A stretch of 38,849 bases of DNA from an uncultured Alphaproteobacteria bacterium (GTDB lineage Bacteria > Pseudomonadota > Alphaproteobacteria > RF32 > CAG-239): NCBI GenBank assembly GCA_944391335.1, contig CALXTF010000010.1, positions 1 through 38,849 on the forward strand, written 5' to 3'. The notes under the pieces are model-generated. The model was given only the letters and a program-made list of their open reading frames with translations. It was not told the DNA's origin and did not search any database. Of this stretch, positions 22,851 to 28,386 are shown one piece after another; position 1 is the stretch's first letter, and every line of letters starts with the position of its first letter. The position numbers and the translations under genes are program-made.

Positions 22851-22871
22851 AAAAATACAGTTGTATTTTTT
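22851..22871 (+). terminator. Terminator after truA
   Basis: AAAAATAC (22851-22858) pairs with GTATTTTT (22863-22870) around AGTT, with an extra T following. It is short and AT-rich, so only moderately strong. Confidence 0.55.
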
Positions 22872-22888
22872 AATAGCTCCGTTATACT
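22861..22888 (+). promoter_or_regulatory. Candidate promoter of the hydrogenase operon
   Basis: TTGTAT (22861-22866), 16 bases, TATACT (22883-22888), followed by a leader of about 28 bases and the Shine-Dalgarno AAAGGAG. The -35 overlaps the truA terminator stem. Confidence 0.45.
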
Positions 22889-22922: not shown

Positions 22923-23183
22923 ATGGCACATTTGATTAAAATCTGTATGGGAAGCTCTTGCTTTGCCCGCGGAAATGCAAAAAATCTCCAATTAATCCAA
23001 AGCTTTTTGGATCAAAATAACATTAAAGCCGAAATAGAATTAGTTGGAATGCGGTGTTGTAATCGTTGTGCCGTTGGTCCCAATATTACTATTGATGACA
23101 AAGAATATCATCATGTCGATAATGAAATGCTTCTTGATATATTAGAAAAAATTTTATTAACTTCTGAGAGAAAAAATGTCTGA
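22923..23183 (+). CDS. Thioredoxin-like [2Fe-2S] ferredoxin (first copy)
   Basis: 86-residue thioredoxin-fold [2Fe-2S] protein of the NuoE/HndA-C-terminal type. Cluster ligands are the C-x4-C pair C8 and C13 (ICMGSSC) and the C-x3-C pair C45 and C49 (RCCNRC), followed by the family phrase AVGPNITIDDKEYHHV. It would shuttle electrons to or from the adjacent hydrogenase. A strong AAAGGAG ribosome-binding site precedes it, it is the first gene of the operon, and its stop overlaps the next start by 8 bases (ATGTCTGA). Confidence 0.9.
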   Translation: MAHLIKICMGSSCFARGNAKNLQLIQSFLDQNNIKAEIELVGMRCCNRCAVGPNITIDDKEYHHVDNEMLLDILEKILLTSERKNV

Positions 23184-24942
23184 TCGTAAATATCCGTTAT
23201 ATACCATTAAAAATAATTGTATGGACTGTTATAAATGTGTCCGCCGCTGTCCGGTTAAGGCTATAAAAATTGAAGACAACAGCGCGCAAATTATACCGGA
23301 ATTATGTATTGCTTGCGGAACATGTTATCGTGTTTGTCCGGCAAAAGCCAAACAACCGCGAAATGATTTAGCCAGAGCAAAATATTTAATAGAATCAGGA
23401 AAAGATGTTTATGTTTCGTTGGCTCCATCATGGATTACAGAATTTAAAGGGTTATCAGAAGAAAAAATGATAGCTTCACTTCGCCGTTTAGGTTTTAAAG
23501 GAGTTGGTGAAACAGCGGCAGGAGCCGAAGAAGTTTCCGCACATATAGCGCAAATGTTGAGCGAAAAAGAAACAGGTTTGTTTATTTCTACGGCTTGTCC
23601 TTCTGTTGTTGAATATATCCGTAAATATTTACCGGAAATGATAAAATATTTAACGCCGCTTTCCTCTCCGCTTCTAGCCCATTGCCAAATGCTAAAGAAT
23701 AAAATGGGACAAGATATAGAAATCGTTTTTGTTGGTCCGTGCATCGCAAAAAAACTTGAAGCAGATTCTCATCCCGAACTTTTAAGTTTGAGTTTAAGTT
23801 TTAATGACATTCGCCAGTGGTTTTTAGAAGCGGGAATAATCCCTGAGGAAATACGCAGCAGCGTTTATGATAAATTTGTGATGACTAAAGCACAAGAAGG
23901 AACGGCTTATCCCATTGAAGGAGGAATGATTGAAACCGTAAAAGCTTATGACAAAACGAAAACAGCTTATATGATGCAACTTTCCGGTATTCAAAATATA
24001 AAAAGAGAGTTATCAAATATGCATCCGGAACAATTTAATCGTCCGGTGTTTATAGAATGTCTGGCTTGTGTTGGTGGTTGTGTAGGGGGACCATGTATAA
24101 GCAATCGTATTTCTGGTTTTGATAAACGTATAGAAATATTGGAACAAAGCGATTTTTCTCAAGAGGCGGGAAAAAGATCTCCCACAACAGATATTACATT
24201 GCAATATGCACAAAAGCAAATTATTGAAAAAGAATATAGTGAAGCACAAATACGCAAAGCACTTTCCATGATTGGTAAATATGGTGTTGAAGATGAGTTA
24301 AATTGTGGTGGTTGCGGCTATGATAGTTGTCGTAATTTTGCAAAAGCGATGCTGTCCGGTAAAGCAGAAGCGGAAATGTGTGTTTCTAATATGAAACAAC
24401 AAGCCCAAAGAAAAGCAAATGCTCTTATACGTTGTATTCCCTCCCCCATAGTTATTGTCGACAATAATTTAAATATTATAGAGTATAATGAAAAGTTTGC
24501 GGAAACATTTTGGCAAGAAGAAAAACACGCGGAAATATATGAACAAAAAGATTTAAGAGGAGCGGATTTACGCGATTTTATAGATTTTACGAATTTATTT
24601 TCGGCTTCGCTTGATCTTGGACAAGATATTCGTCGGGAGCATGTTCGTTTTAACAATCACCTTTTTGATGTTGTCGTCTTTAACATTGATAAAAAACAAA
24701 TAGTTGGAGGAATTATTCAAGACGTCACAAAAATGGAAATGAAAAAAGAACAAATAGCAGAAAAAGCTCGAGATGTTATTCAAAAAAATTTATCTACGGT
24801 TCAACAAATTGCTTGCACACTTGGAGAACATATGGCGGAAACGGAAATATTATTACGATCAATAGCCGAAGATTACGCCGGCAGCGAACCAAAGAGTAAT
24901 ATTGAAAAATCAATAAAGTCATATGAGGAAGAAAATGAATAA
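23176..24942 (+). CDS. Sensory-type [FeFe] hydrogenase with PAS domain (group C, HydS-like)
   Basis: 588 residues. Two N-terminal [4Fe-4S] sites (C15, C18, C21, C25; C44, C47, C50, C54) precede an H-cluster domain with motifs TACPSVV (C141), VGPCIAKKLE (C189) and ECLACVGGCVGGPC (C298, C302). A further [4Fe-4S] motif (C377, C380, C385, C402) and a PAS domain (about 413-520; PIVIVDNNLNIIEYN) follow, with a helical tail. The proton-transfer cysteine of catalytic enzymes is Ala140, as in the characterised sensory enzyme TamHydS. The architecture matches group C [FeFe] hydrogenases proposed to sense H2; those next to phosphatases are termed C3. It overlaps both neighbours by 8 bases. Confidence 0.9.
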   Translation: MSDRKYPLYTIKNNCMDCYKCVRRCPVKAIKIEDNSAQIIPELCIACGTCYRVCPAKAKQPRNDLARAKYLIESGKDVYVSLAPSWITEFKGLSEEKMIASLRRLGFKGVGETAAGAEEVSAHIAQMLSEKETGLFISTACPSVVEYIRKYLPEMIKYLTPLSSPLLAHCQMLKNKMGQDIEIVFVGPCIAKKLEADSHPELLSLSLSFNDIRQWFLEAGIIPEEIRSSVYDKFVMTKAQEGTAYPIEGGMIETVKAYDKTKTAYMMQLSGIQNIKRELSNMHPEQFNRPVFIECLACVGGCVGGPCISNRISGFDKRIEILEQSDFSQEAGKRSPTTDITLQYAQKQIIEKEYSEAQIRKALSMIGKYGVEDELNCGGCGYDSCRNFAKAMLSGKAEAEMCVSNMKQQAQRKANALIRCIPSPIVIVDNNLNIIEYNEKFAETFWQEEKHAEIYEQKDLRGADLRDFIDFTNLFSASLDLGQDIRREHVRFNNHLFDVVVFNIDKKQIVGGIIQDVTKMEMKKEQIAEKARDVIQKNLSTVQQIACTLGEHMAETEILLRSIAEDYAGSEPKSNIEKSIKSYEEENE

Positions 24943-26110
24943 TTCCCTATTTATTGATGTTGGCTCATACCAAAAACAAAAGAATGGAGAAGATTGCTAC
25001 GGTGATACGATTTATTCAAAAAAAATTCCGGAAGAACGTCGAGTGATTAGTATTCTTTCTGATGGTTTGGGAAGCGGCGTTAAAGCAAATATTCTTTCTT
25101 CAATGACGACGCGTATGGCAATGAAGTTTATGGAAGATAATGCAGATCTTTTACGTTCATCAGAAATTATGATGGATGCCTTGCCTATTTGTCAGACAAG
25201 GAAAATCAGTTACGCAACATTTTCTATAGTTGATAGTGAATTAGAAGGGAAAACTCGTATTTTTGAAATGGATAATCCACATTTTATATTCATTCGCAAT
25301 AATAAATCATTATCAATTAAAGGACGAAAATTTTCTTCTCCCAAATGGAAAGAACGAGCGATTAATGCTTCACAAATTATGACACAGCCGGAAGATAGAA
25401 TTATTTTAATATCAGATGGAGTTACACAAGCAGGTATAGGAAATCAAAAATATCCACTTGGATGGGGACGTCAAGGATGTATAGACTATATATTAAAAGA
25501 AATACAAAAAGATCCTCGAATTTCTTCACAAACCTTGGCGCAAAAGATTGTTGAGGAAGCCTTAAATAAAGAAATAGGTAAAAAAGCAGGAGATGATATC
25601 AGTTGTATCTGCATATATTTTCGGATACCTCGTAAATTACTAGTTTTAACCGGTCCGCCATTTGATGAAGATAAGGATCATGAATTTGCCGAACTTGTTT
25701 CAGATTATGACGGTAAAGTTGCTATATGTGGAGGAACCACGGCAAATATCGTAGAAAGAGAATTATGTTTAAAATGTCAAATAGATAAAACAAGTTTTGA
25801 CACACAAATACCGATGTCATCAATCATGGAAGGAGTTGATTTGGTTACAGAAGGAATTTTAACCTTGACCGATGCATATCGTATGTTAAAAGAAGGAATA
25901 GATAGAAAATCAAATGTTGCATCAGTACGTTTGGTTAATTTACTTCTTAGTAGTGATAAAATAGATTTTGTGGTTGGAACCAAAATCAATATTGCTCATC
26001 AAGATCCCAATTTGCCTATGGAACTTGAAATCAGGCGCAATATTGTAAAAAAAATATTTAGATTACTGCAAAGCCGTTATTTAAAAGAAATATCAGTTAG
26101 ATACTTGTAA
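24935..26110 (+). CDS. SpoIIE/PP2C-family protein phosphatase with extra C-terminal domain
   Basis: 391 residues. A SpoIIE-type serine/threonine phosphatase domain (about 1-232) carries metal-binding acidic motifs: GEDCYGD (D20), LSDGLGSG (D43), ISDGVTQAG (D161) and AGDDISC (D220-D221). The remaining 160 residues (LLVLTGPPFDEDKDHEF ... VAICGGTTANI) form a separate domain I do not recognise. The start at 24935 is chosen over 24923 because GAGGAAG lies just before it and it gives an 8-base overlap (ATGAATAA) with the hydrogenase. It is the likely output of the PAS-hydrogenase sensor. No partner kinase or STAS protein is encoded in the window. Confidence 0.88.
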   Translation: MNNSLFIDVGSYQKQKNGEDCYGDTIYSKKIPEERRVISILSDGLGSGVKANILSSMTTRMAMKFMEDNADLLRSSEIMMDALPICQTRKISYATFSIVDSELEGKTRIFEMDNPHFIFIRNNKSLSIKGRKFSSPKWKERAINASQIMTQPEDRIILISDGVTQAGIGNQKYPLGWGRQGCIDYILKEIQKDPRISSQTLAQKIVEEALNKEIGKKAGDDISCICIYFRIPRKLLVLTGPPFDEDKDHEFAELVSDYDGKVAICGGTTANIVERELCLKCQIDKTSFDTQIPMSSIMEGVDLVTEGILTLTDAYRMLKEGIDRKSNVASVRLVNLLLSSDKIDFVVGTKINIAHQDPNLPMELEIRRNIVKKIFRLLQSRYLKEISVRYL

Positions 26111-26125
26111 GGAAAGGAACAAAAT

Positions 26126-26392
26126 ATGGAAAAAATTAAAATAAAAATTTGTTGCGGAACTTCTTGTTTTGTGATGGGTTCAGCGCAGATTCAAGTATTA
26201 GAATTTGCTCCACCGGCAGATATCGCCGATAAAATAGAAATAGAAGAATCTCGCTGTATGAATTATTGTAAAAATACAACAGCAAAATATAATCGAGGAC
26301 CATTTGTTTTAGTTAATGGAGAATTGATTGAAGAAGCTAATTTTGAAAAAGTCGTTAATAAAGTAAGAGAAATATTAAATCAGGAAAAATAA
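26126..26392 (+). CDS. Thioredoxin-like [2Fe-2S] ferredoxin (second copy)
   Basis: 88 residues, the same family as the operon's first gene: C9-x4-C14 (CCGTSC) and C44-x3-C48 (CMNYC), then FVLVNGELIEEA. Pairwise similarity to the first copy is low outside the cysteines, so the two have diverged and probably serve different hydrogenases. It follows the phosphatase by 15 bases with AAGGAAAGGA before it, and overlaps the second hydrogenase by one base (TAATG). Confidence 0.88.
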   Translation: MEKIKIKICCGTSCFVMGSAQIQVLEFAPPADIADKIEIEESRCMNYCKNTTAKYNRGPFVLVNGELIEEANFEKVVNKVREILNQEK

Positions 26393-27846
26393 TGCTAATA
26401 CCTAAAAATAATGCTAATCAAATGCGGACACGTATTTTGGTAAAAATTGTTGAAAAATTTTTGCAAGGAAATTTTGCCGATGCAGATAGGATCCCCTTAG
26501 AATTAAGACCTAAAGGAGGAGAAGTCAGTCGTTGCTGTATATATAAAGATCGAGCGATTCTCAAATATCGATGTATGGCAAGTATGGGCTTTTCTCCAGA
26601 AGATGAAACAGATGAATTAACTAGTTTAAAAGAATATGGAGAAAGAGCTTTAGAACGTCAGCAACACGCAGATAATAAATTATCAGTTATTACAGATGCG
26701 TGTTCTGCATGCGTACGTTCACGTTATATGGTAACGGATGCGTGTCGCGGATGTTTTGCAAAACCTTGTCAAGTAAATTGCCCCAAACAAGCCATAACAA
26801 TAATTAACGGTCGTTCAACAATAGATCCTGATAAATGTATATCTTGCGGTAGATGTCAGGAAGTTTGTCCGTATCATGCCGTTATTCGTGTGCCGATACC
26901 TTGTGAAGAAGCTTGTCCGGTAGGAGCAATTAGTAAAGATGAAACAGGTAAAGAACATATAGATCCGCAAAAATGTATTCTCTGCGGAAAATGCTTACAA
27001 TCATGTCCTTTTGGTGCCATCGTTGAAATGTCGCAAATTGTTGATGTTTTAAAATCTTTATCAATAAAGACCAAAAAAGTTGTAGCCATGTTAGCTCCGG
27101 CTGTTTTAGGACAATTTCCGGGAACAATCAATAATCTTATAGGTGCATTAAAAAAACTTGGTTTTGCAGATGTTGTTGAAGTTGCGGTTGGAGCAGATAT
27201 TACAACGCGTAAAGAAGCTGCCGAATTTATTGAAAAAATGGAAAAAGGCGAGAAATTAATGACGACATCTTGTTGTCCCGCATATTATAAAGCGGCAGAT
27301 GTACATATTCCGGAAATAAAACCATTTGTTTCTCATACACATACCCCCATGTATTATACAGCGGAATTATTAAAAAAGGAACAACCTGATTGTATATCTG
27401 TATTTATAGGTCCATGTTTGGCAAAAAGATTTGAAGCGGAAAGTGATCCTAATGTTGATTATGTACTGACATTTGAAGAAATAGGAGCAATGTTAGTTGC
27501 GTCAGGAATTAATGTTTCGGATTGCCCACCGGAAGATTTTACTAAAATTTCATGTGCTCAGGGGCGTCGTTTTCCTATTAGCGGAGGCGTTGCTGGTGCT
27601 GTAGCGAGTTTAGTGGAAGGTAAAGCGGAATTTAAGCCGACAGCCATCAATGGATTAAATAAGGCCAGTATTAAACTTTTAAAACAATATGCGACCAAAG
27701 GTTCGGAGTTTAATATGGTTGAAGTTATGTGTTGTGAAAGCGGTTGTGTCGCGGGTCCGGGTTGTGTCGCTCTTGCTAAAAAATCAGCGATTATGGTTGA
27801 AAATTATGTTAAGACGGCACCTGATTTAAGAGATAAGAAGGACTAA
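26392..27846 (+). CDS. [FeFe] hydrogenase, group-B-like monomer
   Basis: 484 residues. A cysteine-rich N-terminus (C104, C107, C118, C121, C126, C130) and two [4Fe-4S] sites (C149, C152, C155, C159 and C195, C198, C201, C205, with C171 and C175) lead to an H-cluster domain. Its motifs are TSCCPAY (C294, C295), IGPCLAKRFEAE (C342) and EVMCCESGC (C448, C452), so all four cluster ligands and the proton-transfer cysteine remain. The phrase YMVTDACRGCFAKPC is typical of group B. It may evolve or oxidise H2 using ferredoxin or the adjacent [2Fe-2S] proteins. The HydE, HydF and HydG maturases it would need are not in the window. Confidence 0.9.
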   Translation: MLIPKNNANQMRTRILVKIVEKFLQGNFADADRIPLELRPKGGEVSRCCIYKDRAILKYRCMASMGFSPEDETDELTSLKEYGERALERQQHADNKLSVITDACSACVRSRYMVTDACRGCFAKPCQVNCPKQAITIINGRSTIDPDKCISCGRCQEVCPYHAVIRVPIPCEEACPVGAISKDETGKEHIDPQKCILCGKCLQSCPFGAIVEMSQIVDVLKSLSIKTKKVVAMLAPAVLGQFPGTINNLIGALKKLGFADVVEVAVGADITTRKEAAEFIEKMEKGEKLMTTSCCPAYYKAADVHIPEIKPFVSHTHTPMYYTAELLKKEQPDCISVFIGPCLAKRFEAESDPNVDYVLTFEEIGAMLVASGINVSDCPPEDFTKISCAQGRRFPISGGVAGAVASLVEGKAEFKPTAINGLNKASIKLLKQYATKGSEFNMVEVMCCESGCVAGPGCVALAKKSAIMVENYVKTAPDLRDKKD

Positions 27847-27879
27847 AAGAAAGACCACTTATAGTGGTCTTTCTTTTTT
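27845..27879. terminator. Bidirectional terminator between the hydrogenase operon and the XRE gene
   Basis: A 15-bp stem (27845-27859 with 27863-27877) with a three-base loop, an A tract on the left and a T tract on the right. It ends both converging units; the XRE stop codon lies within it. Confidence 0.9.
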
Positions 27880-28386
27880 ATATTTTTTTGTATTTCTATT
27901 ATTTATAAAAGCAGGATTTTCCTCATGAACAGGAGAATGAGAAATTTCATCCAATAAATTCACAAAACTTTCAGCAAGGCCATGTTTTTTACTTCGTAAT
28001 AGACGCATATAAGCACACACAAGTTTCTGCACATCAGTTCTTTCCTCAATCGGACATTTTCCGGTTTGCAAATTGATAGATTTATTTTCTGGTAAATAGC
28101 TAAAGACTTGTTCAATTGTATCAGGCGACATATCTTCAAAAAAGAAACTGACAGGAACATCGAGCAGACGTGAAAATATCCATAAACGTTGAGCGGAGAG
28201 GCGATTTCCACCAATTTCATACTGTTGAATTTGCTGATAACTAATACCGGCAAGAATTGCTAGATCTTTTTGGGCAATACCAAGATACATTCGCCTAAGG
28301 CGTAATCGACGACCAATATGAATATCAATAGGGTTTGGTTTGCCGTCTGCCATACGACCGCGAGAAAGTTGTTGTTTTGTAACCAT
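27859..28386 (-). CDS. XRE-family helix-turn-helix regulator
   Basis: 175 residues. An XRE/Cro helix-turn-helix domain covers about 21-80 (IGRRLRLRRMYLGIAQKDLA ... GISYQQIQQYEIG.NRLSAQRLW). The remainder is a helical region with FFFEDMSP and LVCAYMRLLRSKKHG, common in small alphaproteobacterial regulators. An AAGGAG ribosome-binding site lies about nine bases upstream. It converges on the hydrogenase operon without sharing a promoter, so regulation of that operon is only suggested by position. Repeated TGTAT/ATACA sites upstream could be its own operator. Confidence 0.85.
   Translation of the reverse strand: MVTKQQLSRGRMADGKPNPIDIHIGRRLRLRRMYLGIAQKDLAILAGISYQQIQQYEIGGNRLSAQRLWIFSRLLDVPVSFFFEDMSPDTIEQVFSYLPENKSINLQTGKCPIEERTDVQKLVCAYMRLLRSKKHGLAESFVNLLDEISHSPVHEENPAFINNRNTKKYKKERPL

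Follow-up and report, generated by a model that had tools for sequence, protein, structure and literature searches.

A conserved five-gene cluster combining a predicted sensory [FeFe] hydrogenase, a SpoIIE-type phosphatase and a group B [FeFe] hydrogenase in an uncultured alphaproteobacterium

The five genes and their products

The DNA stretch analysed here (the window) comprises 38,849 nucleotides of contig CALXTF010000010.1 (contig C10 of the assembly) from an uncultured alphaproteobacterium (GCA_944391335.1; GTDB lineage RF32; CAG-239), whose genome is assembled as 1.33 Mb in 47 contigs, 99.89% complete and 0.11% contaminated. Positions 22923–27846 hold five open reading frames (ORFs), A–E, all intact and on the plus strand, which form one conserved cluster encoding two small [2Fe-2S] proteins, a sensory-type [FeFe] hydrogenase (HydS), a phosphatase and a second [FeFe] hydrogenase (HydB). 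The features discussed below are the following.

22861–22888, plus strand: promoter-like site TTGTAT-16-TATACT upstream of gene A
22923–23183, plus strand: gene A, thioredoxin-like [2Fe-2S] protein, 86 residues (PF01257, 36.7 bits)
23176–24942, plus strand: gene B (HydS), sensory-type [FeFe] hydrogenase, 588 residues (domain profiles and AlphaFold2 model)
24442–24726, plus strand: PAS domain of HydS, residues 423–517 (weak PAS_8/PAS_9 matches and AlphaFold2 model)
24727–24876, plus strand: C-terminal helix of HydS, residues 518–567 (alignments and model)
24923–26110, plus strand: gene C, SpoIIE-type PP2C phosphatase, 395 residues (PF07228)
25634–26107, plus strand: C-terminal alpha/beta domain of the phosphatase, residues 238–395, without family match
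26126–26392, plus strand: gene D, second thioredoxin-like [2Fe-2S] protein, 88 residues (weak PF01257)
26392–27846, plus strand: gene E (HydB), group B [FeFe] hydrogenase, 484 residues (TIGR04105)
27845–27877, listed on both strands: terminator-like hairpin (15-pair stem, T run) downstream of gene E

A first-pass annotation, made from the sequence alone, had described five genes that overlap or nearly touch, and the coordinates confirm this. A and B overlap by 8 nucleotides, C and D are 15 nucleotides apart, and D and E share a single nucleotide. The B/C overlap is 20 nucleotides as called and 8 if gene C begins at its second ATG (24935), the likely start judging from aligned relatives.

HydS contains two Fer4 domains, the hydrogenase domain Fe_hyd_lg_C (153.5 bits), an FeS domain providing a [4Fe-4S] site (PF04060) and then a PAS domain. 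The latter is weak by sequence (PAS_9, E 9.4e-4; PAS_8, 5e-4; both under the cut-off), and a PAS-like sheet is visible in the AlphaFold2 model mb329897691ba, which has a mean predicted local distance difference test (pLDDT) score of 85.9. The H-cluster cysteines (Cys 141, 189, 298 and 302) and those of the C-terminal [4Fe-4S] site (Cys 377, 380, 385 and 402) are present in all 99 aligned HydS proteins. In the same 99 sequences, the position whose role in the proton relay is described in PMC10055695 is occupied by alanine (Ala140), a replacement of the relay cysteine seen in HydS only. The helix that follows the PAS domain carries the motif VIxKNLxTVQQIACxLGEHMxETE, conserved in HydS alignments of 8 and 32 rows; residue 547 in this helix is Cys in 95 of the 99 proteins and Ser in four. 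Taken together with the adjoining Ser/Thr phosphatase gene, the H-cluster cysteines, the C-terminal [4Fe-4S] site and the PAS domain are the features of group C3, and HydS is predicted to be an H2 sensor, as the first-pass annotation had proposed. That annotation also raised the prospect of either hydrogenase falling among Nar1-like, non-hydrogenase proteins. The H-cluster cysteines are complete in both, which excludes a Nar1-like or dead hydrogenase.

The assignment of gene C to SpoIIE-type phosphatases likewise stands: PF07228 matches with 39 bits against a cut-off of 25, and structure comparison shows the N-terminal domain to be SpoIIE/RsbU-like. The motif set is intact, with Asp28, 47, 165, 224 and 225, which we take to have a metal role, kept in 98 out of 98 sequences. 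The C-terminal domain (residues 238–395) has no Pfam match at E 10, and its best PDB profile match has an E-value of 0.28. Foldseek pointed weakly to methylglyoxal synthase (1vmd_A; E 5.3e-3; template modelling score 0.44 by target length, the domain not being modelled alone). In the second structure search (VIA) the phosphatase domain filled all rows, so that the C-terminal part was barely probed. All 120 relatives listed in a protein search with a Dethiosulfovibrio homologue measure 389–408 residues, implying that the length of the two-domain phosphatase is kept.

HydB matches the group B family TIGR04105 over its full length (residues 6–459), its 531.8 bits exceeding the cut-off of 450, in agreement with the first-pass annotation. 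Its relay cysteine, Cys294, and the H-cluster cysteines are conserved in 88 of 88 HydB proteins, including those encoded outside the cluster, and HydB likely makes H2. Both small proteins retain four cysteines, gene A in 90 of 90 relatives and gene D in 72 of 72. Among solved structures, A best matches the C-terminus of Thermotoga maritima HydA (7p5h_A, residues 571–641; E 4.4e-11). D matches PF01257 only weakly (21.9 bits, under the 24.8 cut-off) and likely donates electrons to HydB or accepts them from it.

The promoter-like site upstream of gene A recurs in relatives. The pattern TTGN3-(15–18)-TATA(A/C)T, defined after inspection of 14 of the upstream sequences, begins 57–74 nucleotides ahead of A in all 20 selected loci carrying the same cassette version as the window (version I, see below). 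In 500 first-order Markov shuffles it averaged 0.2 of 20 loci and never exceeded 2. These loci were picked for distinct upstream sequence, although two are near-identical; second copies of a genome were excluded, and so were loci in which AdhE or Rex immediately precedes A. A stricter form, TTGNNTTTT...TATA(A/C)T, is found at a single place in the 38.8 kb window, upstream of gene A (0.15 expected). A generic promoter scan returned 32 sites against 29.9 in shuffles, and the 22861–22888 site is absent from its list. By eye, 18 of the 20 version-I loci have TTGNNTTTT as the −35 part, and the T tract that continues past the usual −35 element is possibly an operator. Downstream, terminator-like sites number 9 in the 7.6 kb scanned versus 4.3 expected, and the stem at 27845–27877 is the longest listed. 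This hairpin overlaps the end of a gene for an XRE-type regulator (27859–28386, minus strand) that is convergent to HydB; no sign was found that this regulator belongs to the five-gene module.

Distribution, gene order and two cassette versions

In the order to which the genome belongs (153 genomes searched), the HydS query matched every genome at E 0.001 because ferredoxin and hydrogenase domains have paralogues. HydS was counted at a minimum of 42% identity over most of its length or in two large pieces, among the listed matches. By this measure, HydS is found in 60 out of 153 genomes and the phosphatase in 60, and the two genome sets, compared from manually entered lists, are identical. The pairing is therefore not peculiar to this genome. 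HydB (at least 45% identity, among the matches listed) is present in 123 genomes, 58 with HydS and 65 without it, while 28 genomes lack both. In the two HydS genomes without a listed HydB, the locus is cut by a contig end (G038) or starts 60 bases from one (G091). Within its own genus, 9 of 13 genomes encode HydS; the other four (G078, G082, G083 and G089, the last listed as 100% complete) gave no match for HydS, the phosphatase or HydB. Named alphaproteobacterial relatives include records from deer caecum and rumen.

The gene order is equally stable. All five genes stand in the order ABCDE on one strand in 69 out of 103 HydS loci, Gastranaerophilales included, and none of the loci violates this order; some genomes enter this set twice under two locus identifiers. 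Three further loci are short stretches with BCDE, and 31 are partial (ABC, BC, AB or B). None of the partial loci comes from a named alphaproteobacterium, and some are cut by contig ends. In each of the 19 HydS loci fetched together with HydS-less HydB loci, all five genes occur in order, with E cut by a contig end in one. This recurring order, together with the identical HydS and phosphatase genome sets, bears out the earlier description of the genes as one coupled unit. One HydS locus, in a metagenome-assembled genome of Victivallaceae (L150, 7001–8776), yielded no phosphatase match.

Beyond the order, the phosphatase was detected in 6 of 385 genomes at the class level, four of them outside the order and one of these four a fragment. 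In a wider scan, of which the best 80 of 565 confirmed stretches were compared and which did not survey Firmicutes, the loci lie first in other Alphaproteobacteria and next in Lentisphaerae, Hydrogenedentes, Synergistota, Desulfovibrionaceae, Planctomycetia, Gastranaerophilales and unnamed bacteria. The statement that phosphatase-linked sensory hydrogenases are known mainly from anaerobes such as Firmicutes was thus too narrow. The alphaproteobacterial origin of the window is well founded: the GC content of the cluster is level with that of its flanks, and MocA, TruA and A–E are contiguous in two congeneric genomes (L065 and L066). Together with the 0.11% contamination, this rules out contamination or a chimera, including the clostridial chimera considered in the first-pass annotation.

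The identical genome sets bear on the idea that HydS is a slow catalytic enzyme exchanging electrons with A, D and HydB, with the phosphatase a mere genomic companion. The intact ligands of the H-cluster and of the accessory clusters would suit such a role, and HfsABC has been considered as a possible working hydrogenase by the authors of PMC13277313. We nevertheless regard it as very improbable, given the PAS domain and conserved C-terminal helix of HydS, the replacement of the relay cysteine in 99 out of 99 proteins and the presence of the phosphatase in exactly the HydS genomes of the order.

Gene D is tied to the module as well. Among the 103 HydS loci, D never occurs without E, nor E without D. 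Beside 20 HydS-less HydB loci examined out of 65, none of A, C and D was found. In the loci read, D thus accompanies the module and not HydB as such, suggesting that D likely links HydB to HydS. This linkage, like that of all five genes and the missing D beside 20 of 20 stand-alone HydB genes, could also be explained by local autoregulation, in which the phosphatase would target HydB, D or HydS and the cluster would throttle its own H2 output with AdhE uninvolved. HydB, however, cannot always be the target, since 31 of the 103 HydS loci (some of them contig-cut) have neither D nor E; considering also the AdhE and Rex neighbours described below, we judge this explanation unlikely. One stand-alone HydB gene (L053, 3514–6168) is followed by a 387-residue ORF that by eye resembles an iron-type alcohol dehydrogenase.

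Phylogenetic analysis revealed that a single alphaproteobacterial family holds two separate cassette versions, I (that of the window) and II. In the phosphatase tree, built from 98 of the 103 loci (five were dropped owing to a stop, short length or lack of a match), 33 version-I alphaproteobacteria, including the window, fall on one side of a branch (support 100/100). Eight of the nine version-II alphaproteobacteria are nested inside a group of 28 rows with Gastranaerophilales (100/99), and the ninth, from another family, joins a different Gastranaerophilales subgroup (93/86). Version II also lies beside Gastranaerophilales in the trees of HydS (48 of 99 usable rows; 97/93) and HydB (58 of 88; 100/98). 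A single clade of all alphaproteobacteria, a group defined after the trees had been seen, is rejected (p-AU 0.00016). Since three gene trees group version II with Gastranaerophilales, this version has likely moved between phyla, in either direction. By contrast, no named donor could be proposed for version I from the best 80 of 565 confirmed stretches to which the comparison beyond the class extended, a set that did not take in Firmicutes relatives: the tree neighbours of the window are alphaproteobacteria of the same genus, family and order for HydS and the phosphatase, joined in the phosphatase tree by members of a further family in the class. Version I appears to have been passed on mainly by inheritance within these alphaproteobacteria. 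Acquisition by transfer, suggested in the first-pass annotation, is therefore supported for version II and not for the cassette of the window itself. G112 and G126, both genomes with a version-II module, have an additional HydB-like gene on a different contig.

The 20 stand-alone HydB genes group in a single clade of the HydB tree (100/98). Its neighbours, though not strongly supported (88/86), are version-I module genes from the same family, and the module HydB of the sister family lies outside both (100/99). The simplest reading of this topology is that stand-alone HydB results from one loss of A–D. The order amounts to a natural experiment: some of its species have the full module, in two separate versions, some have HydB alone and others lack both.

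AdhE neighbours and a possible H2-dependent switch

AdhE is found within 750 bp and on the same strand in 13 of the 103 HydS loci, for which 3 kb of flank were covered upstream in 67 and downstream in 52. In version II, AdhE follows E in seven of the eight loci fetched (out of 13 version-II genomes in the family), the eighth ending inside E at a contig end. In version I, it precedes A in four loci (L073, L092, L093 and L094; the phosphatases of L073 and L094 are identical). Farther afield, one Lentisphaeria and one Planctomycetia locus have AdhE ahead of A or of Rex-A. In 12 of the 103 loci, Rex is the immediate upstream neighbour with the same orientation, in five it is divergent, and 12 have a HydABC-type HydA nearby. 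The adjacency of AdhE in several lineages supports control of ethanol versus H2 formation and makes AdhE the first candidate target of the phosphatase.

Published genetics fit such a switch. Deletion of hfsB, the HydS gene of Thermoanaerobacterium saccharolyticum, raised hydrogenase activity, the adhE transcript and NADH-dependent alcohol dehydrogenase activity, but not NADH-dependent aldehyde dehydrogenase activity, a pattern read by the authors as a hint of post-transcriptional control; they considered AdhE and/or AdhA, and by elimination AdhE, the likely final target (PMC5707799). In the same study, wild-type hfsC (the phosphatase gene) and hfsD were required for high ethanol yield, and deletion of either gene directed flux to lactate without significantly altering adhE expression. 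In Ruminococcus albus, a cluster of an A1 hydrogenase, an AdhE-type enzyme and a group C sensory hydrogenase is down 111-fold in co-culture with an H2 user (PMC6776011).

Based on the identical genome sets of HydS and the phosphatase, the alanine at the relay position of HydS only, the D–E linkage and the AdhE and Rex neighbours, we consider it somewhat probable that HydS senses H2 and switches the phosphatase, thereby steering fermentation between H2 (presumably by HydB) and ethanol (presumably by AdhE). In this scheme, H2 at the H-cluster of HydS would change the PAS domain, and the conserved C-terminal helix would relay this change to the phosphatase, which would then strip phosphate from a Ser/Thr residue of some protein encoded outside the cluster. 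The effect would fall on the activity or level of AdhE. The self-contained unit envisaged in the first-pass annotation is doubtful, as the substrate need not lie in the cluster.

Several observations weigh against this scheme. H2 sensing and phosphatase activity are predicted functions, and the output helix of HydS (residues 518–567) is modelled with low confidence (pLDDT mostly 55–67). No AdhE is nearby in 90 of the 103 loci, many of which have short flanks, and in the genome of the window AdhE (872 residues) is on contig C37, away from the module. The strict promoter-like form was not found on C37, where 334 bases precede AdhE, and a promoter motif common to the module and AdhE was accordingly discarded. 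By eye, the AdhE region of C37 (L172, 306–7598) also holds rubrerythrin-, Fur-family regulator- and flavodiiron-like genes. Homology to hfsABCD follows the descriptions in the papers, not sequences. Deletion of hfsC alone left both adhE expression and ethanol yield about unchanged, with flux to lactate (PMC5707799). The published signs also conflict, the R. albus cluster being up at high H2 and the T. saccharolyticum HydS deletion raising ethanol. Finally, a related group D sensor passes no signal via the redox state of its C-terminal cluster (PMC13104023).

The host genome narrows the choice of phosphatase targets. SpoIIE/RsbU-like phosphatases usually act on STAS proteins, and the N-terminal domain of the cluster phosphatase, the only SpoIIE-family protein in the genome, is of this type. 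This would favour classical partner switching, in which a STAS anti-anti-sigma factor is dephosphorylated and a sigma factor is freed for hydrogenase transcription. However, no match to the STAS family PF01740 was found in the 47 contigs (PF13466 was not searched), while 10 of 14 control genomes were positive. Nor was an RsbW-type kinase found over the cut-off: the sole HATPase_c_2 match (21.2 bits, under the cut-off) is in a histidine-kinase-like protein, by eye an ordinary membrane histidine kinase. Moreover, the cluster has a sigma-70-like site. We therefore find partner switching quite unlikely. Rex (PF06971) was likewise not found in the 47-contig assembly. A small genome without detected STAS, RsbW-type kinase and Rex leaves fewer possible targets for the phosphatase.

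A doubtful but possible variant is a post-translational switch in which HydS, reading H2 and signalling through its C-terminal helix, would drive the phosphatase to act directly on AdhE or HydB without sigma factor, STAS or Rex. The C-terminal alpha/beta domain of the enzyme would then serve for input or docking and be of a kind not yet described, and the five-gene unit would have been traded between gut Alphaproteobacteria and Gastranaerophilales. As for a counterpart kinase, the genome encodes one Pkinase-family protein, which adjoins its own PP2C_2 gene, so that no clear counterpart emerged. On contig C1 near 139–140 kb (L174, 332–2598), the PP2C_2 gene directly precedes this protein, which has C-terminal hydrophobic stretches; in a relative (L042), ORFs resembling a von Willebrand-type protein and a PP2C were noted by eye. 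The [FeFe] hydrogenase domain is matched three times in the genome, by HydS, HydB and HydA, the last with NuoE- and NuoF-like genes beside it and HydF (over the cut-off) nearby.

If H2 sensing by HydS does steer fermentation as proposed, uncultured Alphaproteobacteria and Gastranaerophilales would read H2 pressure and choose accordingly between H2 and ethanol for disposing of spare electrons. A 2025 gut survey has called for work on sensory hydrogenases (PMC12578642).

Comparison with known systems

The closest described category is HydDB group C3, in which a sensory-type [FeFe] hydrogenase adjoins a Ser/Thr phosphatase and whose role, stated to be undetermined, may be H2 sensing (PMC5037454). 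The present cluster resembles C3 by its features and differs in that the sensor and phosphatase are combined, in Alphaproteobacteria, with two [2Fe-2S] proteins and an enzyme of group B. Thermotoga maritima TmHydS has low activity and shares both the PAS domain and the alanine in place of the relay cysteine (PMC10055695), whereas Leu296 is found here where TmHydS has Ser267, as judged by motif and not by direct sequence comparison.

Among operons, hfsABCD of Thermoanaerobacterium has the same order of a HydS homologue (hfsB), a serine-phosphatase-like protein (hfsC) and a ferredoxin-linked [FeFe] hydrogenase (hfsD), and, like the role proposed here, is genetically linked to ethanol yield (PMC5707799, PMC11837493). 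By contrast, the present cluster has the extra gene D between phosphatase and hydrogenase, and its hydrogenase belongs to group B. The cluster of R. albus 7 (PMC6776011) brings together sensor, phosphatase, hydrogenase and AdhE, as do version II and some version-I loci, but its hydrogenase is of group A1, and AdhE of the window genome lies elsewhere. The gut group B hydrogenase, to which HydB is alike by TIGR04105, likely produces H2 in fermentation (PMC12578642); the main text of that survey makes no mention of alphaproteobacteria or of an operon, and no sensor-linked group B unit was seen there. Among the open-licence papers listed, titles and opening lines of abstracts gave no description of the five-gene set or of sensory [FeFe] hydrogenases in gut Alphaproteobacteria.

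Overall, the kind of system is already known from HydDB group C3, the hfsABCD operon and the R. albus HydS cluster. What is new is a host without detected STAS, RsbW-type kinase or Rex, the occurrence of two versions in one family, and the partnership of the sensor and phosphatase with a group B hydrogenase accompanied by D.

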